From assembly GCF_001468395.1 (NCBI RefSeq), contig NZ_LNSG01000004.1, forward strand, positions 1-64,000: a stretch of 64,000 bases of DNA, given 5' to 3'. How positions within the stretch are numbered: position 1 is the first letter of the stretch; each line of letters starts with the position of its first letter. Below, piece by piece: positions 44,705-63,940 of this stretch. The notes below the pieces were generated by a model. It was not told where the DNA came from. It was given only the letters and a program-made list of their open reading frames with translations, and made no database searches. A program made the position numbers and the translations under genes. The DNA comes from Sphingopyxis sp. H073 (lineage in GTDB: Bacteria > Pseudomonadota > Alphaproteobacteria > Sphingomonadales > Sphingomonadaceae).

Positions 44705-45883
44705 CTACCGCTTCGCTTTCTCCAACACCGTTGTAACCACTTCGAGGATCCGCGCGAGTTGAGCATCGGTGATCGTGGGATGTGTCAGGAACATCAGGCT
44801 CGTCTCGCCGAGTTCCCGCGCAGCAGGCAACCTTTGGAGCGGACGCAGGCCGGTATCGTCGAAGGCCTTTTCCAGATAGACTTCTGAGCAGCTGCCGTGA
44901 AGCAGCGGAACGCCCATTTCGACGACCTCCTGCACGATGCGATCGCGGGTCCAGCCGGTCGCCAGCGCAGCCCCGTTCACATAGGCATATTGGCGGTAAT
45001 AGGCGTGCGAATGTCCGGCCGGGGGGACCGGCACCCGGACGATATCGGCAAAGGGCGCGAGGGCGTTAGCGATCGCTCCGCCGATCGCGCCGCGACGCGC
45101 GGACCATTGCGGCATCCGCCCCAGTTGCAGGCGACCGATCGCCGACTGCATCTCGAGCATCCGCCAATTGGTACCGAAACTGTCATGCACCCACCGAAAC
45201 CCCGGCGAATGCTGCTTCTCATAGACCGAGGACCAGTTCTTCCCATGATCCTTGTACGACCACATCAGGCTCCACAATTCCTCGTCATCAGTCGTCACCA
45301 TGCCGCCTTCGCCGCCGGTCGTCATGATCTTGTCCTGGCAGAAGGACCAGGCGCCAATACGGCCGAAGGTGCCGACCGATTTGCCGTGGATCGCAGCGCC
45401 ATGCGCCTGCGCGCAATCCTCGATCACCGCGATCCCGTGTGATTCGGCAAGGTCCATAATGGCGGGCATGTCAGCAGGCCAGCCGGCAAGATGTACGGGA
45501 ATGATTGCCCTGGTCCGCGGCGTGATCCGCGGCGCGATCGTCGCGGCGGAGATATTGCCACTGTCGCGATCGACATCGGCGAAAACCGGGATGGCGCCCG
45601 CCGTGACGACGCACGAGATGGACGCGATGAAGGTTCGGGGGGTAACAATCACCTCGTCCCCGGGTCCGATGCCGAGCGCACGAAGGGCAAGATCCAGCGC
45701 CAGCGTGCCGTTGGCGACAGCAACCCCACGCCGCGCGCCACACCAGTCAGCGAACTCGCGCTCGAAATGCCGCCCTTCTTCGCCCGTCCAGTAATTGACC
45801 CGGTTCGACAGCAGGACGTCCCTGACGCGATCGGCTTCCTCGCTGGTGAAACTCGGCCAAGGTGCGATGGTCGTATTAAGCAA
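44705..45883 (-). CDS. DegT/DnrJ/EryC1/StrS-family sugar aminotransferase
   Basis: A 392-residue PLP enzyme. The Schiff-base lysine is in WSFCQDKIMTTGGEGGM, slightly unlike the common SFHxxK motif; DVDRDSGNISAATIAP and AVIEDCAQAHGA complete the fold. It adds an amino group to a 4-keto (or 3-keto) nucleotide sugar, such as the GDP-4-keto-6-deoxymannose from the divergent gmd. The best start is TTG 45883 after AGGGAAA; an ATG at 45958 lies too far upstream. It runs opposite to its neighbours. Confidence 0.86.
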   Translation of the reverse strand: MLNTTIAPWPSFTSEEADRVRDVLLSNRVNYWTGEEGRHFEREFADWCGARRGVAVANGTLALDLALRALGIGPGDEVIVTPRTFIASISCVVTAGAIPVFADVDRDSGNISAATIAPRITPRTRAIIPVHLAGWPADMPAIMDLAESHGIAVIEDCAQAHGAAIHGKSVGTFGRIGAWSFCQDKIMTTGGEGGMVTTDDEELWSLMWSYKDHGKNWSSVYEKQHSPGFRWVHDSFGTNWRMLEMQSAIGRLQLGRMPQWSARRGAIGGAIANALAPFADIVRVPVPPAGHSHAYYRQYAYVNGAALATGWTRDRIVQEVVEMGVPLLHGSCSEVYLEKAFDDTGLRPLQRLPAARELGETSLMFLTHPTITDAQLARILEVVTTVLEKAKR

Positions 45884-47110
<1,227 letters not shown>

Positions 47111-49048: not shown

Positions 49049-50334
49049 TGCGCAATCTCCTGCAACGACTGCCGGCACTGTGGCAGAGCGAATATGCGGC
49101 TCTCCTCGTCCTGATCGTTTCGATTCAGGGCACTGTGCTCGTCAGCCAAGCGGTCGCCGCGATCTTCTTCGATCCGGTTTTCATTGGCAAGATCCGGACC
49201 TTTGAAAGCGGCTTTTCGGTCATGCTGCTGATTGCCGGGTTCGGGGCTCCCGGGCTCGCGATCCGTGAACTCGCCGCGTCCCGTCACGACCCCGAACTCG
49301 CAGGCACGCAGTTTCGCAATCTCATATTGCTGCCGGTCATGGGCGCTGTGATCGCGCTCGTCGTCGCCGTTCCGCTACAGCACGTCGCCCACCCAGCCTT
49401 TTCGATCGGTTTCCTCTCGCTTGCCGCGGCAGCGTTGCTTCTCGCGCTCGTCAACACCGTGCGCCTGCTGAGCGCGGTCGGCCAGGCGATAGGCGCAACG
49501 CGAACTATAGCCTTCGCGGTGCTCGTCGGCGCGATGCTCAGCGGCATGGCGCACCTCGCCGGTGCGCTGGGTGGGACGCTCGAAAGCTGGCTCATGGGCC
49601 GCGTCGCGGGAGAGACGATTCTGCTGATCTTTCTGATCATGTCATTCCGCCGTTTCCTTCCGACGAGCGCGGGCTGGCGCTTTCACTCGACCCGCTTTCT
49701 CCGGCTTATCGCACGATCGACGACGGTGAATCTCGGACTGATTACGCGAATGGCGGCCGATAGCGCGCCGATCCTGATGTTGGGCTTCGCTGTCGCTGCG
49801 GCCGTCCACGCCGGGACGGGCGACGAGATCGCGCTAAGATCCAATGTCGGCTATTTCGGCATCGCAACCCTGCTTTTGTCGCTCGGCATGCTTCCGATTT
49901 CGGTTGTCTGCCAGCAGGCGATTCCTTACCTCACCCGCGCCGAATCCGGCGATGACCGCCTGACAATTCGGCGCGCAACCTTGCTCCGCGCGGTGGCGGT
50001 CGCACTGTCGGGAGCGTGGCTCATCGGAATGGCACTGCTCATCCTGACCTTGGTGGGACTAGTGGACTGGGCAGCAGCCTCGGCGGCACTGGCGCTCCTG
50101 CCATCGCTGTTCCTCAAGGCGATCGCGGCGACCTGCGGAAGCGTGCTGCTCGCGTCCGACCGCCTGTCTCCGCCTATGTGGGTCAACTTGGCCGAACTCG
50201 GTGCGATCGCAGGCGTTTTCGCTTGTGCGGACCAAGCTTATGGTGTTTCGGTCGCCGTCGTGGCGACCTTGATTGGCAGCGTAATCTCCGCGGGCGGCAT
50301 GCTGATGATCGAGCTTACCGGAGCGAAGAAATGA
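49048..50334 (+). CDS. Wzx-like polysaccharide flippase
   Basis: A 428-residue membrane protein with about 12 helices. It resembles the polysaccharide-biosynthesis export family (TVLVSQAVAAIFFDPVFIGKIRTFESGFSVMLLIAGFGAPGLAIRELAASRHDPE at the start). It would flip lipid-linked repeat units across the inner membrane. Start is GTG 49048, overlapping the glycosyltransferase stop. It overlaps the next gene by four bases. No gene symbol is assigned because sequence similarity in this family is loose. Confidence 0.78.
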   Translation: MRNLLQRLPALWQSEYAALLVLIVSIQGTVLVSQAVAAIFFDPVFIGKIRTFESGFSVMLLIAGFGAPGLAIRELAASRHDPELAGTQFRNLILLPVMGAVIALVVAVPLQHVAHPAFSIGFLSLAAAALLLALVNTVRLLSAVGQAIGATRTIAFAVLVGAMLSGMAHLAGALGGTLESWLMGRVAGETILLIFLIMSFRRFLPTSAGWRFHSTRFLRLIARSTTVNLGLITRMAADSAPILMLGFAVAAAVHAGTGDEIALRSNVGYFGIATLLLSLGMLPISVVCQQAIPYLTRAESGDDRLTIRRATLLRAVAVALSGAWLIGMALLILTLVGLVDWAAASAALALLPSLFLKAIAATCGSVLLASDRLSPPMWVNLAELGAIAGVFACADQAYGVSVAVVATLIGSVISAGGMLMIELTGAKK

Positions 50335-51569
50335 ACCGTATCGACTGGCTGTCGCCCAAGCCATTGTTCTTAATCATTCTGCTCCTCGGCGTCTATGTTC
50401 CCGCCTACGCGTTCCTCAAATATGACGACTGGTTCAGCAAGATCTGGCCGTTCCTGTTTTTCAACAAGCTGAAGACGACGCTGGAGGTGATGGGCATTTA
50501 TGCCGCGGTCGCCGCAACGTTCGTCGTCGCGCATCGCCGCGCCGTCCGAAAGCCGTACACCGGAGCGATCCGGCCGATCCAGCACCACATATTCCACCGC
50601 CTGAACTTCATCCTGATCGGGGCCGGGCTCGGCACCATCGGATTGATCCTGTTCTTCGTCGGCGGCATCGGCGGCCTGCTTGAGGGCGCGTCGGACCGGA
50701 CGCGCGCCTTCGCTGGCATCCAGGGGCTGTTCCTGTTCCTCAACACCCTCGCCTCTGCGATCATTGTCTGGTCGCTGCGCCTGATGACGCGGCCGACTCT
50801 TCTGTCGGAAAAGGTCTCTTTTCTCGGCTTTCTGATGGTGGCGCTGCTCATCCTCGCGCTTCAGGGCCAGAAGAGCACGCTGTTCATCCTGATTGCCGCG
50901 GTGGGCATCATCTTCCATGTCCGGATTCGCCGCTTCACCCTACCCGAAATCCTGATCGCGACATTCGCGCTCTATTGCGCGCTGATGTCCTACCACATCT
51001 ACAAGCAAGAATATCTGGTCCTTGGCCGCGTCGTGTCGCTGTCGAGCGGCGGGCAGTTTTGGGACACCTTCTACCAGTTCCTGAACCAGCAGTTTTTCGG
51101 CAACTTCATGCAGTTGCAGACGATGGCGGTGCTCGTCGAAGGCATGCCGATCCCGCTGCAATATCAATATGGCGCGACCTATTGGGCGGGCATCACGCTG
51201 TTGATTCCGCGCTCGCTCTATCCGGACAAGCCGCTGCCCTCGACAGGGACGTTCACCGAGGCATTTTGGCCTGACGCATGGCGCGCAACGGGAACGACGC
51301 TGCCAGCCGGGGTCTTCGGCGAAGGCTATATGAACTTCGGCATCGCCGGGGCGCTGTTCGTCGCGTGGATCGCGGGCACATTTTACGGACGGATCGAATG
51401 CCGTCGCAAGGCCGATGTCGATGATGATTTCGGTCTGATCCTCTACGCCGTGATGGTCGCAGCGATGCTTCACTATTTCCGCGGGGAGCTCGCATCGGTG
51501 ACCTATACCGCGCTGTCGATCGTGCTGCCCTGCATCGTCGTCACACGCCGGTTGAAGGCGGCCGCCTGA
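50331..51569 (+). CDS. Wzy-like oligosaccharide repeat-unit polymerase
   Basis: A 412-residue multispanning protein from ATG 50331, overlapping the flippase stop (ATGA). About ten membrane helices alternate with a large central loop (SYHIYKQEYLVLGRVVSLSSGGQFWDTFYQFLNQQFFGNFMQLQTM) and IPRSLYPDKPLPSTGTFTEAFWP, as in O-antigen or repeat-unit polymerases. It lacks the Wzy_C motif seen at 40952, so it belongs to a different polymerase type. It probably joins repeat units in the Wzx/Wzy pathway. Confidence 0.72.
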   Translation: MNRIDWLSPKPLFLIILLLGVYVPAYAFLKYDDWFSKIWPFLFFNKLKTTLEVMGIYAAVAATFVVAHRRAVRKPYTGAIRPIQHHIFHRLNFILIGAGLGTIGLILFFVGGIGGLLEGASDRTRAFAGIQGLFLFLNTLASAIIVWSLRLMTRPTLLSEKVSFLGFLMVALLILALQGQKSTLFILIAAVGIIFHVRIRRFTLPEILIATFALYCALMSYHIYKQEYLVLGRVVSLSSGGQFWDTFYQFLNQQFFGNFMQLQTMAVLVEGMPIPLQYQYGATYWAGITLLIPRSLYPDKPLPSTGTFTEAFWPDAWRATGTTLPAGVFGEGYMNFGIAGALFVAWIAGTFYGRIECRRKADVDDDFGLILYAVMVAAMLHYFRGELASVTYTALSIVLPCIVVTRRLKAAA

Positions 51570-51575
51570 AACCCG

Positions 51576-52196
51576 TCAGCCATGCGAGCAGCTGGGCCGC
51601 ATCGGTCCGGCGGGATTGCCGACGACAGTGGCAAAATCGGGAACGTCGCTGACGACCACCGCGCCCATGCCAACGGTCGCCCCGCGCCCGATCCGGATAT
51701 TCTGACGGATCAACGCGCCCGACCCGATATAGGCATGATCCCCGATTTCCACCCCGCCGTTACAGCAGGCTGCGGGCGCGAAAGTCACAAAATCGCCGAT
51801 CCGACAGTCGTGCGCGACATAGGCGTACATGTTGCACTGGAACTGCCGCCCGACCACTGCCGCCGCGTTGATCATCGTGAAATCGCTCACCAGCGCCCCT
51901 TCGCCAAGCGTCGCGAACGGGCTGACCAGCGCGGTCGACGCAATCATCGATCCGATACGGCACCCCATTGTGACCAGTCGCCGCTCTATTTCTTCCCGCG
52001 CGCTGCCGCTTCCGACCGCGATATAGATCGTGTCGTCAGGCCCCAGTTCGGCAGAATCGAGGACGGGCAGGTCGAACATCGCGCCGCCGCCGCCGTCGGT
52101 CGCAAAACAGATGGTCTCGCTGGCTGCAAGCCTACGCCGCAGCATGTCCGCGACTTCCCTGCCGTGTCCGCCATTCCCGAAGATGATGTGCCGCAT
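51576..52196 (-). CDS. NeuD-family sugar O- or N-acyltransferase
   Basis: A 206-residue protein. The N-terminal Rossmann-like domain (MRHIIFGNGGHGREVADML) precedes a left-handed beta helix of hexapeptide repeats (GEGALVSDFTMINAAAVVGRQFQCNMYAYVAHDCRIGDFVTFAPAACCNGGVEIGDHAYIGSGALIRQNIRIGRGATVGMGAVVVSDVP). This fits the sialic-acid O-acetyltransferase NeuD/PglD group, which acetylates amino or hydroxyl groups on sugars. It could N-acetylate the amino sugar made by the DegT enzyme. ATG 52196 is chosen; a TTG at 52214 is possible. It points against its neighbours. Confidence 0.85.
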   Translation of the reverse strand: MRHIIFGNGGHGREVADMLRRRLAASETICFATDGGGGAMFDLPVLDSAELGPDDTIYIAVGSGSAREEIERRLVTMGCRIGSMIASTALVSPFATLGEGALVSDFTMINAAAVVGRQFQCNMYAYVAHDCRIGDFVTFAPAACCNGGVEIGDHAYIGSGALIRQNIRIGRGATVGMGAVVVSDVPDFATVVGNPAGPMRPSCSHG

Positions 52197-52305
52197 GGAC
52201 AGGGCATGCTTCAAGGCGAATTCTTCGTCAAGTTCAGGCGCCTGAGGTTGCGCGGCAGGGGCAGGATCGCTAGGGCACGCCCCGGATCAATCAGGAGAAT
52301 CTGCC

Positions 52306-54285
52306 TTGTGCGGGATTTATGGAGTGCTGGGTCAAACCAGGCACCCCGAACGCGGGCTTGCCGCCATTCGCCGGCGCGGCCCCGATCAGGCAGGACGCTG
52401 GTTCGACGGCGAGGCGGCGATATGGCTCGGCCATCGCCGCCTTTCGATCATCGATATTTCCCAAACCGGCGCCCAGCCCATGCATTCCCCCGACGGCCGC
52501 TACGTGATGGTCTATAATGGCGAGGTCTATAACTATCGCGAACTGAAGAGCGAACTGGAGGCGGCGGGCGAACGCTTCGCCGGGACGAGCGACACCGAGG
52601 TGGTGCTGCGACTGTTCCAGCGCGAAGGGCGCGCGGCGCTGACGCGCCTCAATGGAATATTCGCTCTCGCCATTTGGGATCGGGCGGAAAGCCGGTTGAC
52701 GCTGGCCCGCGATCCGATGGGGGTCAAACCGATCTATCTTGCCCGCACCGCCGACGGCGGCATCGCCTTCGCCAGCGAAATCAAGGCGCTGGTCCGCGCG
52801 GGCGACGTCACACCGACGCTGAATAACAGCGCCGCGCTGCACCATCTCGGTTTCCTATGGTCACCGGGACGCCAAACGATCATGGGCGGAGTGGACAAGC
52901 TGCTGCCGGGCGAATTTCTTGAAATCGAGCTCGGCCGCGAACCGCGGATCGAAACCTATGCCGATCCCTCATTACCCGATCCCAAAGCCCCTCGCATTGC
53001 TTCGGTGGATGACGCCGTCTCGGCGGTGCGATCGGGGGTCGAGGAGGCCGTCAAGCGCCAGCTCGTTGCCGATGTGCCTCTCGGCAGTTTTCTGTCGGGC
53101 GGCCTCGATTCCTCGGCGATCGCCACCTTCGCCTCGCGGCATCGCGATGGCCCTGGCGCGTTGCAATGCTTCTCGATAGAGATTGCGACCGGAGATCTCG
53201 GCAGCGAGGGCTTCGCCGACGATCTCGGCTATGCACGCCGCGTAGCGGACCATCTGGGGGTCGATCTGCACATTGTCCAGGCGGGGACCGACATGTGCGA
53301 CCGGCTGCGCGAGATGGTCTATTTCCTTGATGAGCCCACCGCCGACCTCGCCGCGCTCAACACGTTGCTGATTTCGGAGCTGGCCCGCGCGAACGGCATG
53401 ACGGTTTTGTTGTCGGGATCGGGCGGCGACGACATCTTCACCGGCTATCGCCGTCACTTCGCGCTGTCGCAGGAGAATTATTGGGGCTGGCTGCCCCGCG
53501 CTGCGCGTGCCGGCTTGCGCGCGGGCAGTAGCCTGTTGCCTAAAGACCGGCCGTTCGCGCGCCGCGTCGCCAAGGCGTTTCAATACGCCGACAGCGATGC
53601 CGATGAACGGCTTATATCCTATTTCTACTGGATCGACCCCGACCATGCGGCGCGTCTGTTACATGCCGACCGCCGTGGTGGGTTTGGCGCGGCCGCGATG
53701 GCCGCCCCGATGCGCGAGACGCTCGCCCGTATCCCCGCGGGTGCGTCGCCGCTCGAGCGGATGCTCTATCTCGAATGCCGACATTTCCTGACCGACCACA
53801 ATCTCAATTATGCCGACAAGATGGGGATGGCGGCAAGCATCGAAATTCGCGTGCCGCTGATTGACCTCGATCTGGTTCGCCTCGCCGGGCGCCTGCCCGA
53901 CGCGATCAAGCAGCGCGGCCGCGTCGGCAAATGGGTGTTCAAGAGGGCGATGGAAGGGTTGCTTCCCGACGACGTTATCTATCGGCCCAAGACCGGCTTC
54001 GGCGTTCCGCTGCGGCAGTGGATCGTGGGCCCGCTCGATCCGCTGGTCCGCGAAGCGCTGTCGCCGGCAAAAGTCGCCGCGCGCGGCCTGTTCGATGCCG
54101 ACGAGATCGCCCGGTTGATCGACGCGAACCGCGTCGGCCGAATCGACGCCTCCTATACCATCCTCTCGATGTTGTGCCTCGAAATCTGGTGCCAGCAATT
54201 TATCGACGGCGATTTCGCAGTCGATCCCGACATCGACGCGCATCGAGATGCGCCCGTTTCCAATACCGAATGTGAGCGAGCATGA
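52306..54285 (+). CDS. asnB: glutamine-dependent asparagine synthetase-type amidotransferase
   Basis: A 659-residue enzyme. The start TTG 52306 follows AGGAG and puts the catalytic Cys at residue 2 (MCGIYGVLGQTRHPERGLAAIRRRGPDQ). The glutaminase domain spans about residues 2-210. The ATP-binding synthetase domain has the PP-loop LSGGLDSSAIATFASR. Within polysaccharide loci such enzymes are thought to amidate sugar uronic acids rather than make asparagine; that is inference here. It is coupled by four-base overlap to the next gene. Confidence 0.9.
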   Translation: MCGIYGVLGQTRHPERGLAAIRRRGPDQAGRWFDGEAAIWLGHRRLSIIDISQTGAQPMHSPDGRYVMVYNGEVYNYRELKSELEAAGERFAGTSDTEVVLRLFQREGRAALTRLNGIFALAIWDRAESRLTLARDPMGVKPIYLARTADGGIAFASEIKALVRAGDVTPTLNNSAALHHLGFLWSPGRQTIMGGVDKLLPGEFLEIELGREPRIETYADPSLPDPKAPRIASVDDAVSAVRSGVEEAVKRQLVADVPLGSFLSGGLDSSAIATFASRHRDGPGALQCFSIEIATGDLGSEGFADDLGYARRVADHLGVDLHIVQAGTDMCDRLREMVYFLDEPTADLAALNTLLISELARANGMTVLLSGSGGDDIFTGYRRHFALSQENYWGWLPRAARAGLRAGSSLLPKDRPFARRVAKAFQYADSDADERLISYFYWIDPDHAARLLHADRRGGFGAAAMAAPMRETLARIPAGASPLERMLYLECRHFLTDHNLNYADKMGMAASIEIRVPLIDLDLVRLAGRLPDAIKQRGRVGKWVFKRAMEGLLPDDVIYRPKTGFGVPLRQWIVGPLDPLVREALSPAKVAARGLFDADEIARLIDANRVGRIDASYTILSMLCLEIWCQQFIDGDFAVDPDIDAHRDAPVSNTECERA

Positions 54286-56429
54286 AGCAGATCGTACAGA
54301 ACCTCAGCAGCGGCGAGACGAGCATCGTCGATGCGCCTGCGCCGTCCGTCACGCGGGGCACCGTGCTGATCCGCACCACGACCAGTCTCATTTCGTCCGG
54401 AACCGAGCGAATGCTCGTCGATTTCGGCCGTGCATCGCTGTTCCAGAAGGTTCGCAAGCAGCCGGAACGTGTCCGCCAGGTTCTCGACAAGGTTCGTACC
54501 GACGGCCTTGCGACGACCTATGAAGCGGTGCGCTCGAAACTCGAGCAGCCGATCCCGCTCGGCTATTGCAACGTTGGCGAGGTGATCGATGTCGGCGCGG
54601 GCGTGACCGAGTTCACCGTTGGCGATCGCGTCGTTTCGAACGGCCCGCACGCCGATGTCGTCCGCGTCCCCCGCTTATTGTGCGCGCGTATCCCCGACGG
54701 AGTCGACGACGAAGCGGCGGCGTTCACCGTCGTGGCCAGCATAGGCCTGCAAGGCATCCGCCTCGTCCAGCCGACCATCGGCGAAACCGTGGTGGTAACG
54801 GGCGCGGGCCTGCTCGGTCTCCTTACCGTGCAACTGCTACGCGCTGCTGGCTGCCGGGTTCTCGCGATCGACTTCGACGAAAGCAAGCTCGCGATCGCTC
54901 GCGAGCTGGGCGCCGAGACCTGCAATCCCGGCGGGGGTGCCGACCCCGTCGCCGCAGGTCTGTCGTTCAGCCGCGGCGCGGGAGTGGATGCGGTCATTAT
55001 CACCGCGTCGACCGACAGCAGCGATCCCGTGTCGCAAGCGGCCAACATGTGTCGCAAGCGCGGACGGATCGTCCTGGTCGGGGTGACCGGGCTCACCCTC
55101 AATCGTGCCGACTTTTATGAAAAAGAATTGTCGTTCCAGGTCTCATGCTCCTACGGCCCGGGCCGTTACGACCCGGGCTATGAGGAAGGCGGTAACGACT
55201 ATCCGCTGGGATTCGTGCGCTGGACCGAACAGCGCAATTTCGAGGCTGTTCTCGATATGCTCGCCAGCGGGGCGCTCGATACGGCGCCGCTCGTCAGCCA
55301 CCGTTTTGCCTTCGAAGACGCGCCCGGCGCCTACGACGTGCTGACCACCGACAAGTCGGGCCTCGGGCTGATCCTTGAATATCGCAGCGAAAACGAAAGC
55401 CGGCTTGCCCGAAACATCAGCTTCGTTCCCGCAGCGACCATACCCGCAGCGCGTGTCGACGGCGCCCCTCGCTTCGCTATGATCGGTGCCGGAAACTACG
55501 CTTCGCGCATGCTGATCCCGGCGCTTCGCGGCGCGGGTGCGATAATGGCAACGCTCGTCAGTTCGGGCGGCTTATCGAGCGCGCTCCACGGTTCGAAGAA
55601 CGGTTTCGAGCAGGCAAGTACCGATCGCGCCGCGGTTCTCGCAGACCCCGCGATCGACGTCGTCGCCATTGCGACTCGCCACGATACCCATGCGGGCTTT
55701 GCGATCGACGCGCTCGACGCGGGCAAACATGTCTTCGTTGAAAAGCCACTGGGCATCACGCGCGAGGAAATCGATGCGGTGGAGGCGGCCTATCGGGCAG
55801 CGCAGGACCGCGGCGCGGCGCGCCAGTTGATGCTTGGCTTCAACCGCCGGTTCGCGCCACATGTCGTGCGGATGAAGCAACTCCTCGCCACCGTGGCGGA
55901 GCCGAAAAGCTTCATGATGGTGATGAACGCCGGTGCAATTCCCGCCGACCACTGGACACAGAATCCGAATGTCGGCGGCGGCCGCATCATTGGCGAAGCA
56001 TGTCATCATATCGACCTGATGCGTTTCCTTGCCGGAGCGCCCATCACGTCGGTGCGCGCGCAGCGGATCGGCGATTCCGGGGGACTGGCGGTGACCGAGG
56101 ACAAGGCCGCAATCACCCTCGGTTTCGCTGACGGGTCTTTCGGTACGATCCATTATCTCGCAAACGGCTCCGCAAGTTTCCCAAAGGAGCGGATAGAGGT
56201 CTTCGCCGCCGGCCAGGTGCTGCAACTCGACAATTTCCGCAAGCTCAAGGGGTTCGGCTGGCGCGGCTTCCGGTCGATGAACATGTTCCGCCAGGACAAA
56301 GGCCAGGCCGATTGCGCAAAGGCTTTCGTTTCGGGGCTCTCCACCGGCACACCGGCGATCGCCGCCGAAGAGATTTTCGAAGTGGCACGCGCCACGATTG
56401 AGGCAGCGGAGCAGCTTCGCAGCCAATGA
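54282..56429 (+). CDS. two-domain oxidoreductase (zinc-type dehydrogenase fused to Gfo/Idh/MocA)
   Basis: A 715-residue fusion. Residues 1-360 are a medium-chain alcohol-dehydrogenase fold (GYCNVGEVIDVGAGVTEFTVGDRVVSNGPHADVVRVP and the Rossmann motif VVVTGAGLLGLLTVQLLRAAG). Residues 390-715 are a Gfo/Idh/MocA oxidoreductase (FAMIGAGNYASRMLIPALRGAGA, HVFVEKPLGITREEIDA). The two NAD(P)-binding domains could perform linked oxidation and reduction on one sugar. Such fusions are seen next to heparinase-like genes in surface-polysaccharide loci, but their reaction is not established. It overlaps both neighbours by four bases. Confidence 0.85.
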   Translation: MKQIVQNLSSGETSIVDAPAPSVTRGTVLIRTTTSLISSGTERMLVDFGRASLFQKVRKQPERVRQVLDKVRTDGLATTYEAVRSKLEQPIPLGYCNVGEVIDVGAGVTEFTVGDRVVSNGPHADVVRVPRLLCARIPDGVDDEAAAFTVVASIGLQGIRLVQPTIGETVVVTGAGLLGLLTVQLLRAAGCRVLAIDFDESKLAIARELGAETCNPGGGADPVAAGLSFSRGAGVDAVIITASTDSSDPVSQAANMCRKRGRIVLVGVTGLTLNRADFYEKELSFQVSCSYGPGRYDPGYEEGGNDYPLGFVRWTEQRNFEAVLDMLASGALDTAPLVSHRFAFEDAPGAYDVLTTDKSGLGLILEYRSENESRLARNISFVPAATIPAARVDGAPRFAMIGAGNYASRMLIPALRGAGAIMATLVSSGGLSSALHGSKNGFEQASTDRAAVLADPAIDVVAIATRHDTHAGFAIDALDAGKHVFVEKPLGITREEIDAVEAAYRAAQDRGAARQLMLGFNRRFAPHVVRMKQLLATVAEPKSFMMVMNAGAIPADHWTQNPNVGGGRIIGEACHHIDLMRFLAGAPITSVRAQRIGDSGGLAVTEDKAAITLGFADGSFGTIHYLANGSASFPKERIEVFAAGQVLQLDNFRKLKGFGWRGFRSMNMFRQDKGQADCAKAFVSGLSTGTPAIAAEEIFEVARATIEAAEQLRSQ

Positions 56430-58255
56430 GCCGCCTTGCGACCAGATTCAGAACCCTGCGCGCGCTGGGTTTCGGCAATATCCTGCGGGTGCTGTCCTAT
56501 CGGGCGCAGCTTCGCCTTGGCCGCTATCCGGCCGAGCCGGCCTCGGGCACCATATTGCCGACCGGTCCGATGTTCCTGCCCCCGGCGCTTCCTCCGACCG
56601 GCCTCGGCGCCCCGCACGACTGGACGAACGAAGGTCTGCTGTTCAGCCACCACCCCTTCCCGCTAGGCGACGCCCCCCCCGCCTGGCTGGTCAATCCTTT
56701 CACGGGCGAAGATTTCCCGGATCGCGGCCGCCCCTGGTTCCGCATCGGCGATTTCGATCCGCGTTTCGGTGACATCAAACTGGCATGGGAATTGTCACGT
56801 TTCAGCTGGGCTCTGCCGATGGCCCAGCGCGCGCGCGAGGGGTCGGGCGACGATTTCGACCGGCTCAATCGCTGGATTGACAACTGGACGTTCGAGAACC
56901 CGCCCTATCGCGGTCCCAACTGGAAATGCGCGCAGGAAGCCGGCATCCGGGTGATGCATCTCGCGATGGTGTCGCTGTTGCTGGGGCATCGCGACGCGAC
57001 GCCGCGGCTCGCTGGGTGGCTCGACTGGCATTTGCGGCGCATCGCCCCGACGATGGCTTATGCGCGCGCGCAGGACAATAATCACGGGACGTCGGAGGCC
57101 GCGGCCCTGTTCATCGGCGGGGCGTGGCTGGCGCGGTCGGGTCATCCGCACGCCGAAGGGTGGGCCCGCAGGGGCCGTGCGGCGCTGGAAGAACGCTGCC
57201 TCGCGTTGATCGCGCCCGACGGCAGCTTCAGCCAGCATTCACTGACTTATCACCGCATGATGCTTGACACGCTGTCGATGGCCGAACTGTGGCGCCGCGC
57301 GCTCGACCTGCCCCCGTTCAGCGCGTCGCTGACCGATCGTGCGACCCGCGCCGCCGGGTGGCTGCACGCGATGATCTTCTCGCCGGATGGCGATGGCCCG
57401 AACCTCGGCGCGAATGACGGGGCACAATTGCTGCCGATGTCCGATACACCCTATCGCGATTTCCGCCCGTCCTGCGCATTGGCGCTAACCTTGTTTGCAG
57501 ATGCAGACGCTTTCGGGGGCGACGTCGCCCGCCACGCCCGCTGGTTCGGCATCGACACGCCGTCCGGCAAGGTGGCGGCCGAACCGGCGCACCGACTGTT
57601 CGATGCGGGAGGCTATGCCGTCCTGCGGCAGCAAGGCGCCGTCGCTCTGCTGCGCTACCCCCGCTTCCGCTACCGTCCAAGCCAGGACGATGTGATGCAT
57701 GTCGACCTCTGGATCGATGGCGAGGCTATCCTGCGAGACGGCGGCACCTACAGCTACAACGATGGCGATGCGTGGATCGACTATTTCGGCGGGATCGCGG
57801 GGCATAATAGCATCGAGTTCGACGGCCGCGAGCCGATGCCGCGGCTCGGCCGCTTCCTTCTCGGAGACTGGCTCGACGCGTCGGAATCCGAAACTGGAAT
57901 AGATGCCGCAGGCCGCCCCGTCGCCCGTGCGGCGTATCGCGACCGACACGGCGCGCTGCATCGCCGTATGATCACCCTGGCGCCCGGCGAAGCGGTGGTG
58001 GTCGACGAAGTCTCGGGACTCAGCAACGATGCGACGATCCGCTGGCGCCTGCGGCCCGGCGAGTGGCATCCCATCGCCGGCGGCGTCGCGGCGGGCGGCC
58101 TCTCGATCACGATCGAAGGTGATTTCCGCGACGCGCCACGCATCGTAGCGGGCCATGAATCGCTCTTCTATCGCGAAAAACGCGACGTTCCCGTGCTAAT
58201 CGCGACCGCGGCCGACGCAGGGACGATCCTTACGCGGCTAAGGTGGCCAGCATGA
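56426..58255 (+). CDS. heparinase II/III-family protein
   Basis: A 609-residue protein with the N-terminal alpha-helical barrel (about residues 100-350: RIMHLAMVSLL-like helices, QDNNHGTSEAAALFIGGAWLARSG with conserved Asn-His, SLTYHRMMLDTLSMAELWRRAL) and a C-terminal beta-sandwich (DVMHVDLWIDGEAILRDGGTYSYNDGDAWIDYFGGIAGHNSIEFDG). Family members cleave uronic-acid-containing polysaccharides by beta-elimination. No signal peptide is visible at the N terminus (MSRLATRFRTLRALGFG), unusual for an exported lyase. It overlaps the oxidoreductase and the next glycosyltransferase by four bases each. Confidence 0.86.
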   Translation: MSRLATRFRTLRALGFGNILRVLSYRAQLRLGRYPAEPASGTILPTGPMFLPPALPPTGLGAPHDWTNEGLLFSHHPFPLGDAPPAWLVNPFTGEDFPDRGRPWFRIGDFDPRFGDIKLAWELSRFSWALPMAQRAREGSGDDFDRLNRWIDNWTFENPPYRGPNWKCAQEAGIRVMHLAMVSLLLGHRDATPRLAGWLDWHLRRIAPTMAYARAQDNNHGTSEAAALFIGGAWLARSGHPHAEGWARRGRAALEERCLALIAPDGSFSQHSLTYHRMMLDTLSMAELWRRALDLPPFSASLTDRATRAAGWLHAMIFSPDGDGPNLGANDGAQLLPMSDTPYRDFRPSCALALTLFADADAFGGDVARHARWFGIDTPSGKVAAEPAHRLFDAGGYAVLRQQGAVALLRYPRFRYRPSQDDVMHVDLWIDGEAILRDGGTYSYNDGDAWIDYFGGIAGHNSIEFDGREPMPRLGRFLLGDWLDASESETGIDAAGRPVARAAYRDRHGALHRRMITLAPGEAVVVDEVSGLSNDATIRWRLRPGEWHPIAGGVAAGGLSITIEGDFRDAPRIVAGHESLFYREKRDVPVLIATAADAGTILTRLRWPA

Positions 58256-59466
58256 GGATAATCTATCTACACCAGCATTTTTCGACGCCTAAGGGATCCG
58301 CGGGCAACCGCTCATATCAGATGGCCCGCGCGCTGGTTTCCGAAGGTCATCAGGTGACGATGCTGTGCGGCAGCTATTCGGGCGGCACCACTGGCCTGAC
58401 AGGCAATTTTCAGCGGGGCATCCGCCGCGGCATCGTCGACGGAATAGACGTCATCGAATGCAACCTCCCCTACTCGAACGCCACCGGCTTCCTTAGACGG
58501 TCATTGCTGTTCCTGCGCTTCATGCTGCGCACGATCGGCTTTGTCCTGACCGAGCGATACGACATCCTGTTCGCCACGACCACTCCGCTGACCGTCGGGG
58601 TTCCGGGAATCATCGGCCGCTGGCTGCGCGGCAAACCTTTCGTGTTCGAAGTCCGCGACCTGTGGCCCGAATTGCCGAAGGCGATGGGAGCGATCCGCAA
58701 TCCAGCCGTGCTTCGGGCGCTCGCCATCCTCGAAAAGGCGAGCTACAGGTCGGCGGACCGACTGATCGGCCTCTCGCCTGGAATCGCCGAGGGGATTGCG
58801 CGCGTCGGCGTCGACAAGGAACGGATCGCGATGATCCCGAACGGCTGCGACCTTGAGATTTTCGCGACTGACGCGCCCGAACGTCCGGAGGGCATCGCCG
58901 CGTCCCACTTGCTCGCCATCTACGCGGGCACGCACGGTATGGCGAACGCGCTCGACAGTGCGCTCGACGCGGCGGCCGTCCTTCGGCGCCGCGGGCGGGA
59001 CGACATCAGGATCCTGCTGGTCGGCCAAGGCGGGCAGAAAGACGCGCTTGTCGAACGCGCGCGTCGCGAGGGACTGGACAATGTCCTTTTCCACGCACCG
59101 GTTCCGAAGGAAAAGCTTGCGTCGTTCATGGCAGGAGCCGACGTCGGGCTTCAGCTTCTGGCCAATGTGCCTGCCTTTTACTACGGAACATCGCCCAACA
59201 AATTCTTCGACTATCTGTCGGCGGGCCTGCCCGTCCTCTGCAATTATCCCGGCTGGGTCGCCGACATGATCGAACGCGATCATATCGGTTTCGCTGTCGC
59301 CCCCGACGATCCCGAAGCCTTTGCCGACGCGCTCGAACGCGCGGCGGCGGCAAAGGCCGAGCTGCCGGCGATGGGCAAACGGGCGCACTCGCTCGGCCAA
59401 CGCGAATTCGACCGGCCCCTGCTCGCCCGCCAGTGGGTCGATTGGGTCACCGGCACCGTTCGTTGA
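58252..59466 (+). CDS. glycosyltransferase family 4 (WbuB-like)
   Basis: A 404-residue GT-B enzyme. The start RIIYLHQHFSTPKGSAGNRSYQMARALVSEGHQVTMLCGSYSGG is the N-terminal acceptor domain of the WbuB-like group. The donor domain has IPNGCDLEIFATDAPERPEG, AIYAGTHGMANALDSALDAAAVLRRRG and SPNKFFDYLSAGLPVLCNYPGWVADMIERDHIGFAVAPDDPEAFADALERA. WbuB homologues transfer N-acetyl-fucosamine-type sugars, but the donor here is not proven. ATG 58252 overlaps the lyase stop. Confidence 0.88.
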   Translation: MRIIYLHQHFSTPKGSAGNRSYQMARALVSEGHQVTMLCGSYSGGTTGLTGNFQRGIRRGIVDGIDVIECNLPYSNATGFLRRSLLFLRFMLRTIGFVLTERYDILFATTTPLTVGVPGIIGRWLRGKPFVFEVRDLWPELPKAMGAIRNPAVLRALAILEKASYRSADRLIGLSPGIAEGIARVGVDKERIAMIPNGCDLEIFATDAPERPEGIAASHLLAIYAGTHGMANALDSALDAAAVLRRRGRDDIRILLVGQGGQKDALVERARREGLDNVLFHAPVPKEKLASFMAGADVGLQLLANVPAFYYGTSPNKFFDYLSAGLPVLCNYPGWVADMIERDHIGFAVAPDDPEAFADALERAAAAKAELPAMGKRAHSLGQREFDRPLLARQWVDWVTGTVR

Positions 59467-59566: not shown

Positions 59567-60697
59567 ATGGCCGCGAGAAAGATATTGATCGTTTTTGGAA
59601 CCCGTCCCGAGGCGATCAAGATGGCCCCTGTCGTCCAAGCCCTCGCGGCGGATCCGGCGATCGACGCACGTGTATGCGTGACGGCGCAGCATCGGCAGAT
59701 GCTCGATCAGGTGCTCGAGCTCTTCTCAATCCGTCCGGAATATGATCTCGACATCATGCGGCCGGGCCAGGGGCTGTACGACATCACCAGCAATGTGCTG
59801 CTCGAATTGCGTCCGGTGCTTGAGGCTTTCCGTCCCGAGGTCGTGCTGGTTCATGGCGACACCACGACGACATTAGCGGCGAGCCTTGCGGCCTATTATC
59901 AGCAGATCGCGGTCGGCCATGTCGAGGCTGGGCTCAGGACAGGGAACATCTATTCACCATGGCCAGAGGAAGTGAACCGCAAGGTTACCGGCGCAGTCGC
60001 GACGCTCCACTTTGCGCCGACTGAAAAGGCGGCAGCGAACCTCCGCGCCGAAGGTGTCCCAAACGACCGCATCTGGGTCACCGGCAATACGGTGATCGAT
60101 TCGTTGCAGCACGCCGTCGAACTGATCCGAACGCAGCCGGAACGCGAGCGCGAACTTGCCGAGCGCTTCAATCTCGACCCGGCCAAGCGCATGATCCTGG
60201 TCACCGGTCACCGCCGCGAAAGTTTCGGCGACGGTTTCGAACGCATCTGCATTGCACTGGCGCGCCTCGCACAGCGCCAGGATGTCGAGATTGTCTATCC
60301 GGTTCATCTCAATCCAAACGTGAAGGGGCCGGTCGAAGCCAATCTCGGCAATCTTGCCAACGTCCACCTGCTCGCCCCGCAAGACTATTTGCCATTCGTC
60401 TATCTGATGGATCGCTCGACGATCATCATCACCGATTCGGGCGGCGTGCAGGAGGAGGCACCGTCGCTGGGCAAGCCGGTACTCGTGATGCGCGACACCA
60501 CCGAACGGCCCGAGGCGGTCGAGGCCGGAACCGTTCGCCTCGTCGGGACCGATGTGGAGGCGATCTTGTCCGAAGCGAGCTTGCTGCTGGACGACGCGGA
60601 AGCCTATGCAGCCATGTCGCGTGCGCACAATCCCTATGGCGACGGAAAGGCAGCCGGACGGATTTTGCAGGCTCTGCGCGGTCTCGATCGCGCCTGA
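59567..60697 (+). CDS. wecB: UDP-N-acetylglucosamine 2-epimerase (non-hydrolysing)
   Basis: A 376-residue enzyme: [86 protein letters not shown] and [43 protein letters not shown] are the full family signature. It converts UDP-GlcNAc to UDP-ManNAc. It begins 100 bp after the glycosyltransferase and 26 bp before wecC. Together they make UDP-ManNAcA. Confidence 0.96.
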
Positions 60698-60723: not shown

Positions 60724-61959
60724 ATGGCTTTCGAAACGATTTCGGTCATTGGTCTCGGGTATATCGGCCTGCCCACGGCAGCGATGTTCGCGTCGCTGAA
60801 GCGCAAGGTGATCGGGGTTGACGTCAACCCGAATGCGGTCAATGCGATCAACCGCGGAGAGGTACATATCGTCGAGCCCGATCTCGATATCGTCGTGCGG
60901 TCATGCGTGTCGGAAGGCATGCTGCGCGCGACCGCGACGCCCGAACCTGCCGACGCATTCCTGATTGCAGTGCCGACGCCCTTTACCGGTGACGATCACC
61001 AGCCTGACCTTGCCTATATCGAAAGTGCGTCGAGGGCGATCGCGCCCGTCCTCAAGGCTGGCGACCTTGTCGTTCTCGAATCCACTTCCCCGGTCGGTGC
61101 GACCGAGCAGATGGCGGCATGGCTTGCGGAAGCTCGACCGGACCTCCGTTTCCCGCAAGACGCGGGCGAAAACGCAGACATCAATGTCGCCCATTGCCCC
61201 GAACGCGTACTCCCCGGCCGCGTGATGCACGAGCTGGTGTGGAACGACCGTGTCGTCGGCGGCATGACCGCGCGCTGCTCCGAGCGCGCCACCGCGCTGT
61301 ACAAGCTTTTCGTCCGCGGCGAGTGCGTAAAGACCAACGTCCGCACGGCCGAACTTGCCAAGCTGGCCGAAAACAGCTTCCGCGATGTCAACATCGCCTT
61401 CGCGAACGAATTGTCGATGGTGTGCGACAAATTCGGCATCGACGTCTGGGAACTGATCTCGCTCGCCAATCGCCATCCCCGTGTCAACATCCTCCAGCCG
61501 GGCCCGGGCGTGGGCGGCCATTGCATCGCAGTCGATCCCTGGTTCATCGTCGCCGGCGCGCGCGACGAGGCGAAACTCATCCGCTCCGCCCGCGAAGTCA
61601 ACGATGCCAAGCCGGGCTGGGTCATCGACAAGATAGAGGCGGCGATCACCGCAGCTGGCGATACCGCGGCGATCGCCTGCTACGGACTTGCCTTCAAACC
61701 CGACATCGACGACCTGCGTGAAAGCCCGGCGCTCGAAATCACCCGCGAACTAGGGACGCGTTATCCGGGTCGCGTGCTAGCGGTCGAGCCCAATATCGAT
61801 GCCCTGCCCGCCGCGCTCTCGGGCATCCAGCTGGTTTCGCTGGCAGAGGCGCAGGTGACGGCCAAGGTCCATGTGATGCTCGTCGATCACCGCGAGTTCA
61901 AGGAAGCCGGGGTTCCGACGGGCGAGCTCGTCGACAGTAAGGGCGTCTGGAAGAGCTGA
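60724..61959 (+). CDS. wecC: UDP-N-acetyl-D-mannosamine dehydrogenase
   Basis: A 411-residue NAD-dependent dehydrogenase: ISVIGLGYIGLPTAAMFASLKRKVIGVDVNPNAVNAINRGEVHIVEP, AHCPERVLPGRVMHELVWNDRVVGG, the active-site Cys in GPGVGGHCIAVDPWFIV, and the C-terminal UDP-binding domain. Its motif set separates it from the ugd-type enzyme at 26060. It makes UDP-ManNAcA, a uronic acid that may be the target of the heparinase-like lyase or of amidation by AsnB. It converges with the 61994 gene, 34 bp apart. Confidence 0.95.
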   Translation: MAFETISVIGLGYIGLPTAAMFASLKRKVIGVDVNPNAVNAINRGEVHIVEPDLDIVVRSCVSEGMLRATATPEPADAFLIAVPTPFTGDDHQPDLAYIESASRAIAPVLKAGDLVVLESTSPVGATEQMAAWLAEARPDLRFPQDAGENADINVAHCPERVLPGRVMHELVWNDRVVGGMTARCSERATALYKLFVRGECVKTNVRTAELAKLAENSFRDVNIAFANELSMVCDKFGIDVWELISLANRHPRVNILQPGPGVGGHCIAVDPWFIVAGARDEAKLIRSAREVNDAKPGWVIDKIEAAITAAGDTAAIACYGLAFKPDIDDLRESPALEITRELGTRYPGRVLAVEPNIDALPAALSGIQLVSLAEAQVTAKVHVMLVDHREFKEAGVPTGELVDSKGVWKS

Positions 61960-61993: not shown

Positions 61994-63940
61994 TCATCCG
62001 TGGGCCAGCAGCTCCGTCACGGTTCCATTCTCAATCTTTGCGGTGCGATACTCGGGGACGAGCTTTTCCATCAGCGCGAGCGCCGCCCCAGCGTCCCCGG
62101 CTTCAAGCCGGTCGTGCATCGCTGTCAGGACCGCCTCGAGCGCGGGCCAGGGCAACATCGTTTCGTGGGCGCGAATGATTCGCTCGTGGCCGGTCGGCTG
62201 AGGATCGTCGCCGATCAGCAACTCCTCATACAATTTCTCGCCGGGACGAAGGCCAATTTCGACGATCTCGATGTCGCCGGCCGGGTTGTGCGCCGAACGT
62301 TCGGTCAGACCGCAAAGCCGGATCATCGAGACCGCAAGATCATAGATGCGAACCGACTGCCCCATGTCGAGAACGAACACCTCGCCGCCCTTCGCCATCG
62401 CGCCGGCCTGGATCACCAGCTGCGCCGCCTCGGGAATCGTCATGAAATAGCGCGTGATCCGCCTGTCGGTCAGCGTGATCGGACCGCCGGCGCGGATCTG
62501 TTGTCGAAACAGCGGCACGACCGAACCGCTCGAACCCAGAACGTTGCCGAAGCGGACCATCGAAAACACGGTTGCCGAACCGGCGGCCGCGCGAGCCTGA
62601 AGGACGAGTTCGCAAATGCGCTTCGACGACCCCATGACATTGGTCGGGCGCACCGCCTTGTCGGTGCTAACCAGAATGAAATGGGATACGCCCACAGCCT
62701 CGGCCGCCAGAGCCGTGTGAAACGTACCGAAAACATTATTGCGCAGGCCGGAGATCGGATTCGCCTCGACCAGCGGAACATGCTTGTATGCTGCGGCGTG
62801 AAAGGTGGTGTCAGGGCGATACTTTTCAAAGATGCGACGGATCGAGGCCCGATCGGACACGTCGCATAACTCAGGCACCACCTCCGAACCCAGCCCGCCA
62901 CGAAAGGCCACCGACGAAAGCTCGCGCTCGATTTCATAGAGGCCAAGCTCGGATTGCTCGACCAGGATCAGCCGCGAGGGACGGCACGCCAATATTTGCC
63001 GGCACAATTCGCTACCGATCGATCCGCCAGCCCCCGTTACCAACACGACGCGGCCGGCAAGCGTCTTGCCCAGCAACAGTTCGTTCGGCGCAACGGGGTC
63101 GCGACCGAGCAATTCTTCGATCTGGATTTCGCGCAGATCGGAAATAGACACTTGGCCTTCGATGATGTTGCCGACGCTGGGCAATGAACGGACGGCGACT
63201 CCGCGCTCGGAAAGATCCTCGATGATCTGGCGGCGACGCGAGCGCGCGGCACTCGGAATCGCAAGCAGGACTTCGTCGATCCGATATTCATCGATCAGGG
63301 CAGGAAGATGCGCCGACTCATGGACTGGAATACCATCGAGCAGTTGTCCTCGCAGCCGGGGATCGTCGTCGATGAACGCGACTAGTTTCATCTGCGGTTC
63401 GTGACGAAGCGCCATCGCAAGCTGCTGCCCGGCCCGGCCCGCGCCATAGATGCAGATACCGTGCCGCTCGAACTGCTTATTTCCGGTATGCAAAAGGTCG
63501 ACCACAATGAAACGCAGCGCCAGACGGCTGAAGCACAGGAGTGCGAGGAAGGTCATCGGGTATAGCAGTCCCATCGTCCGCGGAATGCCGGGAAACGAGA
63601 CAAAGGACAGCATGATGACCATCGGCACCGTGAAGATCGCGCATGCGACGGCGAGGCTCATCATCGTACGGCCGCCCGAAAAACGGATCAGCGACGAATA
63701 GATATTGCGCGCCCAAGCGATTGGGAACCAGAAACTCGCCCCGAACGCGACGAGCATCCCGAAATAGGGGCCCCAGATGAACCACTTCCCGGTACGGAGC
63801 TGGAGCGCAATGATCGCTGCCACGACCAGCAGTCCGGCGTCGATGACCACCGCCATCCATCGCCGTTCAGACCGGGGCCGACCAGCAAGCCGGGTAATCG
63901 CTGCCAGCAGCATTTGCTCGCAACGCTCCAATATAGTCAC
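61994..63940 (-). CDS. membrane-bound nucleotide-sugar 4,6-dehydratase (CapD/WbpM-like)
   Basis: A 648-residue protein with four N-terminal membrane helices (residues about 30-135), a Rossmann-like domain with YGAGRAGQQLAMALRH, and the C-terminal dehydratase domain (VVLVTGAGGSIGSELCRQILACRPSRLILVEQSELGLYEIERELS, HAAAYKHVPLVEANP, LVSTDKAVRPTNVMGSSKRICELV). At the usual Tyr-x3-Lys site the sequence is MGSSK, the Ser-Met-Lys form of the FlaA1/PglF/WbpM family. It makes UDP-4-keto-6-deoxy-HexNAc. Start is GTG 63940 after GGAG. Its product could be used by the DegT aminotransferase. Confidence 0.93.
   Translation of the reverse strand: MTILERCEQMLLAAITRLAGRPRSERRWMAVVIDAGLLVVAAIIALQLRTGKWFIWGPYFGMLVAFGASFWFPIAWARNIYSSLIRFSGGRTMMSLAVACAIFTVPMVIMLSFVSFPGIPRTMGLLYPMTFLALLCFSRLALRFIVVDLLHTGNKQFERHGICIYGAGRAGQQLAMALRHEPQMKLVAFIDDDPRLRGQLLDGIPVHESAHLPALIDEYRIDEVLLAIPSAARSRRRQIIEDLSERGVAVRSLPSVGNIIEGQVSISDLREIQIEELLGRDPVAPNELLLGKTLAGRVVLVTGAGGSIGSELCRQILACRPSRLILVEQSELGLYEIERELSSVAFRGGLGSEVVPELCDVSDRASIRRIFEKYRPDTTFHAAAYKHVPLVEANPISGLRNNVFGTFHTALAAEAVGVSHFILVSTDKAVRPTNVMGSSKRICELVLQARAAAGSATVFSMVRFGNVLGSSGSVVPLFRQQIRAGGPITLTDRRITRYFMTIPEAAQLVIQAGAMAKGGEVFVLDMGQSVRIYDLAVSMIRLCGLTERSAHNPAGDIEIVEIGLRPGEKLYEELLIGDDPQPTGHERIIRAHETMLPWPALEAVLTAMHDRLEAGDAGAALALMEKLVPEYRTAKIENGTVTELLAHG

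Follow-up and report, generated by a model that had tools for sequence, protein, structure and literature searches.

A conserved pairing of a fused oxidoreductase with a heparinase-fold protein, probably serving L-galacto amino-uronic acid synthesis in bacterial surface polysaccharides

The 64,000-nucleotide stretch of Sphingopyxis sp. H073 analysed here (the window; NCBI RefSeq assembly GCF_001468395.1, contig NZ_LNSG01000004.1, positions 1 to 64,000 of the forward strand) carries a row of genes for a glutamine amidotransferase of the asparagine synthase type (AsnB), a fused double oxidoreductase (BiOx), a heparinase II/III-fold protein (Hep) and a family 4 glycosyltransferase (GT4), followed by WecB and WecC (Table 1). 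We consider it somewhat probable that this module makes an L-galacto amino-uronic acid, N-acetyl-L-galactosaminuronic acid (L-GalNAcA) or a close relative, and installs it in a Wzy-type surface polysaccharide. This reading draws on directly seen gene content, gene co-occurrence, kept and lost residues, and exchange of the module.

The pairing of BiOx with Hep is the most constant feature of the module. BiOx has at least 554 relatives in the bacterial genomes searched; the analysis covered the 80 best, a sample hence biased to close relatives. At 60–70% identity, these 80 loci are spread over Alpha-, Beta- and Gammaproteobacteria, Chlorobium and further groups, a distribution that points to frequent transfer. 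Of the 80, 77 hold a heparinase II/III-fold gene, and the three exceptions (L007, L024 and L072) are cut off by a contig end no more than 3 kb past BiOx; an open reading frame (ORF) of 500–680 residues directly follows BiOx in 71 loci, with a four-base overlap in 45 of the 71. Hep was likewise found in all 20 further BiOx regions from the order of Stutzerimonas stutzeri and the window's family, which were drawn from 33 matches (three of the remaining 13, namely L010, L015 and the window, had already been counted). The coupling is beyond chance. BiOx itself is patchy: within the window's family it occurs in 7 of 149 genomes, counting the window's own, and within the S. stutzeri order (Pseudomonadales), at a stricter E-value, in 26 of 293.

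UDP-N-acetyl-D-mannosaminuronic acid (UDP-ManNAcA), which WecB and WecC, both of established families, would make, is the likely starting sugar, because BiOx co-occurs with WecC and shares gene rows with it. WecC scored above its curated cut-off in every BiOx genome tested (50/50, drawn from the 80 loci). Among genomes of the S. stutzeri order it is present in 22 of the 26 with BiOx compared with 23 of the 267 others (Fisher p 6e-17). Within the window's class 15 of 289 genomes have WecC, five of which carry a BiOx relative, and at a BiOx identity of at least 55% WecC is found in three of four genomes. BiOx, Hep, WecC, WecB and GT4 stand in that order in a single row on a Parabacteroides plasmid, and genome G085 has the row BiOx-HepB-GT4-WecB-WecC, with one internal stop in WecC.

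BiOx joins two oxidoreductase domains in one chain, a medium-chain dehydrogenase/reductase (MDR) domain at about residues 1–370 and a Gfo/Idh/MocA domain at about residues 395–715 (AlphaFold2 model, predicted local distance difference test (pLDDT) score 87.6). The glycines of the two Rossmann motifs, Lys488 and His575 are invariant in the 36 BiOx sequences aligned, and the second domain (PF01408, 61.5 bits) has the Rossmann motif, the EKP lysine and the catalytic histidine, the last two having functional roles in Gfo/Idh/MocA enzymes. The catalytic zinc ligands of MDR enzymes are a cysteine and the GHE motif; in BiOx the cysteine position is Ser39 and variable, and GHE has become G-Y in all 36 sequences, and BiOx was on these grounds rejected as a zinc-dependent enzyme. 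KanD2, which acts on C3 of a sugar, was the top structure for the Gfo/Idh/MocA domain in both PDB comparisons.

Hep belongs to the Heparinase II/III-like fold family, with PF07940 and PF16889 both above the Pfam cut-offs. Its AlphaFold2 model (pLDDT 88.5) best matches heparinase III (4fnv), and a profile search with Hep against structures returned heparinase III chains alone. Two classes can be told apart: class A, of about 609 residues with the motif RPSQ.D..H, to which the window's protein belongs, and class B, of about 550 residues and of the canonical GHAHAD type. Catalysis in heparinase III involves an active-site Asn/His, a Tyr and a His (the H of WHCQPD). The counterparts of the first three, Asn219, His220 and Tyr275, are invariant in 29 of 29 class-A proteins and align with the NH and YH of heparinase III, whereas the lyase His is replaced by Pro418 in all 29, the window's included, with a new invariant His425. 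Class B retains the lyase His in 12 of 12 proteins, in a GHAHAD-like motif. The N-terminal hydrophobicity of the window's Hep is 0.92, compared with 0.25–1.62 for cytoplasmic and 2.43–2.75 for membrane neighbours, and of the 29 class-A proteins, the window's among them, 27 fell below 1.8, as did all 12 of class B, as judged on a simple hydrophobicity scale with our own threshold, with neither a signal-peptide predictor nor a secreted-lyase control. Judged by its sequence, Hep thus appears cytoplasmic, without the signal-like N-terminus of an exported lyase of polysaccharide lyase family 12 (PL12). It shares with the PL12 enzyme heparinase III (4fnv, 5jmd, 4mmh) the fold and the Asn/His and Tyr motifs, but differs from it in Pro418, in its N-terminus and in its biosynthetic operon setting.

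Two side observations concern the same fold. The Sphingopyxis genome holds a second heparinase II/III-family protein (L001, G000:C2:491860-492594), whose N-terminus has no hydrophobic stretch and which has neither the Asn-His nor the Tyr-His motif in the alignment. A third, divergent heparinase-fold class directly adjoins distant BiOx genes in L105, L106, L107 and L109.

Exchange between the parts of the module bears on where each protein acts. All 64 class-A loci, the window's among them, hold a glycosyltransferase at least 50% identical to that of the window, while the best match is below 40% in 34 of 34 class-B loci, none of which has the window type (three class-B loci without a glycosyltransferase match were excluded). 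Similarly, a PglE-type (bacillosamine-type) aminotransferase at least 50% identical to the window's is present in 48 of the 64 class-A loci (window included) and in none of 37 class-B loci. On the BiOx tree, by contrast, the class of the Hep partner switches 16 times, at least 12 of these being forced by well-supported branches (by a quick method, and excluding L007, L024, L033 and L072, which have no class label); even so, the class labels cluster more than expected from 500 shuffles (mean of 30 changes). Since BiOx swaps partners while the Hep class stays with the glycosyltransferase, this suggests that the nucleotide sugar is the substrate of BiOx and that Hep comes in at the transfer to the acceptor or later, although the association of Hep with the glycosyltransferase may be a linked inheritance block of no functional meaning.

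L-GalNAcA is the 3,5-epimer of D-ManNAcA. We tentatively propose that two oxidoreductase domains of unrelated fold invert C3 on UDP-ManNAcA and that a cytoplasmic heparinase-fold protein inverts C5 on the lipid-linked sugar; bacterial 'heparinases' in capsule and O-antigen loci would then be biosynthetic epimerases, and a Hep without BiOx, as in Sphingobium sp. CFD-2, would lead to N-acetyl-L-gulosaminuronic acid (L-GulNAcA). The Gfo/Idh/MocA domain would oxidise the C3 hydroxyl and the zinc-less MDR domain would reduce the ketone from the opposite face, giving a D-altro sugar, which GT4 would transfer onto a lipid-linked first sugar (here presumably bacillosamine-type, judging from the neighbouring genes). 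Hep would probably act at or just after this transfer, given that its class goes with the transferase: its Asn/His/Tyr would take the C5 proton, and the carbanion would be re-protonated on the other face to give the L-galacto sugar. Inversion is favoured over cleavage because a terminal uronate has no O4 sugar to expel. AsnB may then amidate the uronic acid, as an optional step. A lyase-fold C5-epimerase acting on a glycosidic uronate is known in dermatan sulfate epimerase, a eukaryotic enzyme of the secretory pathway that, unlike the proposed Hep, works on polymer; it was not among the 50 fold matches listed for Hep.

Gene pairs described in other bacteria are consistent with this proposal. 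Pseudomonas aeruginosa PA14 has zbdP, for a 78 kDa MDR plus Gfo/Idh/MocA protein, followed by the 1653-bp heparinase-like gene hepP, whose product is named a heparinase in a paper that does not use the term O-antigen (PMC5732420). By described architecture and by primers these two are a BiOx/Hep pair: translated in up to three frames, five of the ten published PA14 primers each encode a six-residue peptide that occurs exactly in the family expected (RVLAID and KRGRIV in BiOx; LSPMYH, PLSLRI and EGWEPY in class-B Hep), 60 random six-residue controls per family having reached at most 5 matches. The five other primers matched four or five residues, and hepP-For2 fits class A (5/6) better than class B (4/6). 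The pair (PA14_23420/23430, also ORF_10/ORF_11) is listed as an O-antigen transcription unit and both mutants are attenuated in worms (PMC3406104), the link of hepP to O-antigen being made also in PMC4198096 and the attenuation reported also in PMC2568960. A predicted UDP-ManNAcA dehydrogenase carries a neighbouring locus tag (PMC12654532), with no WecB noted there, and the PA14 O-antigen is -4)-alpha-L-GalNAcA-(1-3)-N-acetylquinovosamine (QuiNAc)-(1-3)-rhamnose (Rha) (PMC2997053). The likeness to the window therefore lies in the BiOx architecture and the adjoining heparinase-fold gene, in a strain with an L-GalNAcA O-antigen; the two differ in that PA14 HepP is of class B (about 550 residues) and the window's Hep of class A (609 residues), with another glycosyltransferase and a bacillosamine-type initiator. 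In ceftazidime-selected P. aeruginosa, hepP (three mutants, filed under other or unknown functions) and orfN/wbpL (four mutants) recur (PMC10187892), which is consistent with a shared O-antigen role.

In Vibrio vulnificus YJ016 the genes VV0357 and VV0358, annotated as a zinc-binding dehydrogenase and a heparinase-like protein near the capsule locus, are each required for capsule (PMC6037467), and the lipopolysaccharide (LPS) contains alpha-L-GalNAmA, an acetimidoyl derivative of L-GalNAcA (PMC3210612). On description and annotation, they are probable counterparts of BiOx and Hep. For emulsan, WeeE and WeeF were postulated to make UDP-L-GalNAcA, and their homologues, two adjacent genes in seven Acinetobacter baumannii K loci, were renamed gnlA and gnlB, gnlB standing without gnlA in KL215 much as Hep stands alone in Sphingobium CFD-2; likened here by description, they are presented, in the passages that treat them, with no AsnB and no mechanism (PMC9676051). 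No heparinase was found in the A. baumannii structure paper. With adjacent BiOx and heparinase-fold genes and the UDP-ManNAcA genes at hand, the window has the gene content of a UDP-L-GalNAcA module of the gnlAB or PA14 type. A conversion of a UDP-linked D-manno to an L-galacto amino-uronic acid has also been proposed for Bordetella WbmF/G/H (PMC2279256), but these are short-chain dehydrogenase/reductase (SDR) enzymes using 4-keto chemistry and are unrelated to BiOx and Hep; none of AsnB, BiOx, Hep and GT4 of the window has an SDR family match. The zinc-binding dehydrogenase ETAE_3141 of Edwardsiella tarda lies outside the O-polysaccharide island ETAE_1192-1214.

The sequence-only reading had offered the module as a candidate for an undescribed pathway, and this holds in part. 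A gene pair for UDP-L-GalNAcA had been postulated (PMC9676051) and the PA14 pair assigned to O-antigen (PMC3406104), whereas no enzymology was found in the searched literature, and we agree with that reading that the reactions of the fused oxidoreductase and the lyase-like protein are not established. No statement that the PA14 pair makes L-GalNAcA, or equals the capsule-essential YJ016 pair or the window's module, was found in the searched literature, nor any literature under the Prokaryotic Genome Annotation Pipeline (PGAP) name with heparinase and asparagine synthase.

Several observations weigh against L-GalNAcA synthesis by this route. In the S. stutzeri order, four of the 26 genomes with BiOx (G372, G490, G544 and G623) have no WecC above cut-off; in the window's class, counting any BiOx relative (E up to 1e-60), WecC is present in only 5 of 15 genomes, compared with 10 of 274 others; and WecB and WecC both lie inside the fetched locus in just 45 of 101 cases. 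Among ten regions with a distant BiOx (29–43% identity), Hep adjoins in four, a weak match lies within 4 kb in two and none was found in four, three of which are AsnB-BiOx-WecC rows. The best NCBIfam match of the Gfo/Idh/MocA domain is inositol 2-dehydrogenase (97 bits, cut-off 355), that to UDP-GlcNAc 3-dehydrogenase being weaker (58 bits, cut-off 450), and because all NCBIfam matches of this domain fall below their cut-offs, similarity does not fix the carbon that BiOx oxidises. The 50 fold matches listed for Hep comprise lyases and one weak aldose 1-epimerase, with no uronate C5-epimerase. GT4 enzymes are classed as retaining, and with the expected UDP-sugar a retaining enzyme does not readily form an alpha-L linkage, a puzzle shared with N-acetyl-L-fucosamine (L-FucNAc) transferases. 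No class-A producer with a solved polysaccharide is tied to the window's class-A Hep by sequence, and for YJ016 the solved structure is that of LPS, the mutant phenotype that of capsule. Finally, one study (PMC5732420) reported that recombinant HepP (rHepP) cleared heparin in a plate test, a sign of lyase activity, at least in class B. In the same study the well-developed biofilm and the 80% worm killing retained by a zbdP insertion mutant were lost in the hepP mutant, which is unlike two steps of one pathway; other work found both mutants attenuated (PMC3406104, PMC2568960).

It is unlikely that class-A loci make some other sugar from UDP-ManNAcA (L-GulNAcA, or a C4 or C2 variant) and that L-GalNAcA is confined to class-B loci of the PA14 type. 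Active-site residues do differ between the two Hep classes, and L-GulNAcA occurs in Vibrio polysaccharide (VPS) of Vibrio cholerae, where it was suggested to arise from D-ManNAcA by C5 inversion (PMC3901696). A class-A Hep without BiOx points the same way: on a Sphingobium sp. CFD-2 plasmid (L101, 5293-17551) the same polysaccharide locus has class-A Hep and GT4 and no BiOx within the 25.8 kb read, and this locus may make L-GulNAcA or may be decaying. However, whether their partner is of class A or class B, BiOx proteins resemble the window's about equally (61–70% and 63–70% identity), and this similarity, together with the at least 12 class switches, implies that the product of the oxidoreductase is probably the same in both classes.

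The sequence-only reading had regarded Hep as a uronic-acid lyase that edits the polymer. A related view, that Hep is a true polysaccharide lyase that trims or clears polymer as AlgL clears alginate, BiOx making an unrelated sugar, is improbable. It would account for heparinase III as the best structural match and for the clearing of heparin by rHepP, and the V. vulnificus authors themselves invoked lyases degrading misplaced capsule (PMC6037467). Polymer editing is nevertheless unlikely because Hep has no signal-like N-terminus and class A has no lyase His. The near-obligate pairing with BiOx argues further against it, as does the loss of V. vulnificus capsule on deletion of the probable counterpart (PMC6037467), a clean-up lyase being expected to be dispensable for making capsule. 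On these grounds a secreted lyase or polymer editor was rejected, and the editing role is not upheld.

An alternative chemistry towards the same product is a 4-keto route, in which Hep would invert C3 as well as C5, the part of BiOx being confined to oxidising and re-reducing C4; we regard this as improbable. GDP-mannose 3,5-epimerase works through a 4-keto intermediate. The Bordetella scheme for L-GalNAc3NAcA likewise combines a 4-keto sugar with 3,5-epimerisation (PMC2279256), and no sequence feature of BiOx fixes the carbon oxidised. Against it stand the C3-acting KanD2 as the top structure, a weak point, and the existence of Hep without BiOx.

AsnB is the least constant member of the row. 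It has the N-terminal Met-Cys (Cys2 nucleophile) and the glutamine amidotransferase and synthase domains of an AsnB-type amidotransferase, and would probably amidate a uronic acid of the repeat unit. A homologue at least 40% identical adjoins in just 8 of the 101 Hep-bearing loci (window included; one additional, unlabelled locus, L033, also has AsnB), and AsnB is probably an optional add-on. The sequence-only reading had taken the four genes as one functional unit, on the grounds of four-base start/stop overlaps, and had proposed a comparison of neighbourhoods across genomes. The overlaps are real, ATGA standing in the sequence at each of the three junctions; at the last, the overlap measures four bases only with the ATG at 58252 as GT4 start, the ORF list giving GTG 58243, and the ATG is favoured because the best family match starts at residue 5 of the GTG frame. 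The unit did not survive the comparison: the BiOx-Hep pairing is conserved and the four genes together are not, leaving BiOx-Hep-GT4 as the core. As to the coupled manufacture of an amidated uronic-acid polymer, synthesis of an amino-uronic acid from UDP-ManNAcA is probable, with AsnB demoted to an accessory. That all four genes form a single pathway to such a polymer, edited by Hep, is therefore very improbable in spite of the overlaps and of three loci (L008, L015 and L071) that keep all four genes in order within nearly the same cluster, given the rarity of AsnB and the lack of any sign, in the N-terminal hydrophobicity test, that Hep meets polymer.

The order in L008 (Pseudomonas yamanorum) and L015 (S. 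stutzeri TS44) is WecC-Gmd-SDR-GT-Wzx-Wzy-AsnB-BiOx-Hep-GT4-NeuD-DegT-CapD on a single strand, and L071 is nearly the same; the window differs in having WecB and WecC last and NeuD, DegT and CapD on the opposite strand. The polymers of the four loci may be closely related. Elsewhere, in L102, L103, L104 and L100, from the window's class and Streptomyces, a distant BiOx (about 37–41%) stands with AsnB and WecC with no heparinase gene found, perhaps representing a related pathway that ends in a C3-epimer amide.

The module lies in a Wzy-type surface-polysaccharide locus that spans from about 36.7 kb to the window end, in the order initiator, formyltransferase, PIG-L, PglE-type, Gmd, SDR, glycosyltransferase, Wzy, PglD-type, AsnB, BiOx, Hep, GT4, WecB, WecC and PglF-type. 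Its SDR genes match Gmd, LegB/GalE-like and PseB/FnlA-like models, and the CapD/PglF-type dehydratase is proposed as the first step towards the initiating amino sugar. The formyltransferase and PIG-L deacetylase may formylate or deacetylate a 4-amino sugar. A start of the Wzy frame at GTG 50016 is possible and would produce an overlap of about 320 bases with the frame before it; its real start is probably near 50310. The closest WecC relatives among plasmid records are Sphingobium plasmid copies. An entire WecB-WecC-BiOx-Hep-GT4-bacillosamine locus is carried by Sphingobium sp. AntQ-1 plasmid pl3 (L098, 3751-26052), which is typed as conjugative and offers a direct transfer route for the locus. 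L-GalNAcA is also a constituent of Ralstonia EPS I. Plasmid searches with BiOx, Hep or WecC gave no Ralstonia record, the presence of the Ralstonia megaplasmid in the collection not having been checked.

Table 1. Features of the module and of the surrounding polysaccharide locus in the window.
Feature	Coordinates	Strand	Support
Export protein and Wzc	36705-39723		part of polysaccharide locus
Initiating sugar-phosphate transferase, PglC-like	42394..43083	+	PF02397 147 bits
Sugar formyltransferase and PIG-L deacetylase	43080-44683		adjoin initiating transferase
DegT/PglE-type aminotransferase	44705..45958	-	PF01041 309.3 bits
Flippase candidate	49048-50334		position and hydrophobic N-terminus only
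Wzy-type repeat-unit polymerase	50310..51569	+	TIGR04370 60.5 bits (cut-off 40)
NeuD/PglD-type acetyltransferase	51576..52214	-	TIGR03570 181.8 bits (cut-off 160.8)
AsnB-type glutamine amidotransferase	52306..54285	+	TTG start, protein MCGIYG...; TIGR01536 420.6 bits (cut-off 267.1), PF00733, PF13537
AsnB-BiOx overlap, ATGA start/stop	54282..54285	+	read from sequence
BiOx, fused oxidoreductase	54282..56429	+	PF00107, PF01408 and PF22725 in single chain
BiOx-Hep overlap, ATGA start/stop	56426..56429	+	read from sequence
Hep, class A, 609 aa, heparinase II/III fold	56426..58255	+	PF07940 66.3 bits (cut-off 24), PF16889 24.3 (cut-off 22)
Hep-GT4 overlap, ATGA start/stop	58252..58255	+	read from sequence
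GT4 glycosyltransferase	58252..59466	+	PF13579 90 bits (cut-off 29.7), PF00534
WecB, UDP-GlcNAc 2-epimerase (product UDP-ManNAc)	59567..60697	+	TIGR00236 518.6 bits (cut-off 210.15)
WecC, UDP-ManNAc dehydrogenase (product UDP-ManNAcA)	60724..61959	+	NF008286 695.8 bits (cut-off 459)
CapD/PglF-type nucleotide-sugar dehydratase	61994..63940	-	PF02719 387.9 bits

L-GalNAcA is found in the PA14 O-antigen (serotype 19 type of the International Antigenic Typing Scheme, IATS), in Pseudoalteromonas polysaccharides and in the Acinetobacter RAG-1 capsule, and in acetimidoyl form in V. vulnificus YJ016 (PMC2997053, PMC3210612, PMC9676051). Its biosynthesis rests on postulate in the searched literature, where no biochemical demonstration was found for L-GalNAcA, UDP-L-GalNAcA, wee/gnl or hepP/zbdP. 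If our proposal is true, tying the 'zinc dehydrogenase' and the 'heparinase' to the L-GalNAcA step would correct two published readings, that of a virulence heparinase and that of a heparosan- or alginate-like capsule. In many bacteria the gene pair would also mark L-configured amino-uronic acids at the genome level, and Hep would offer an example, open to test, of a lyase fold converted into a cytoplasmic epimerase.

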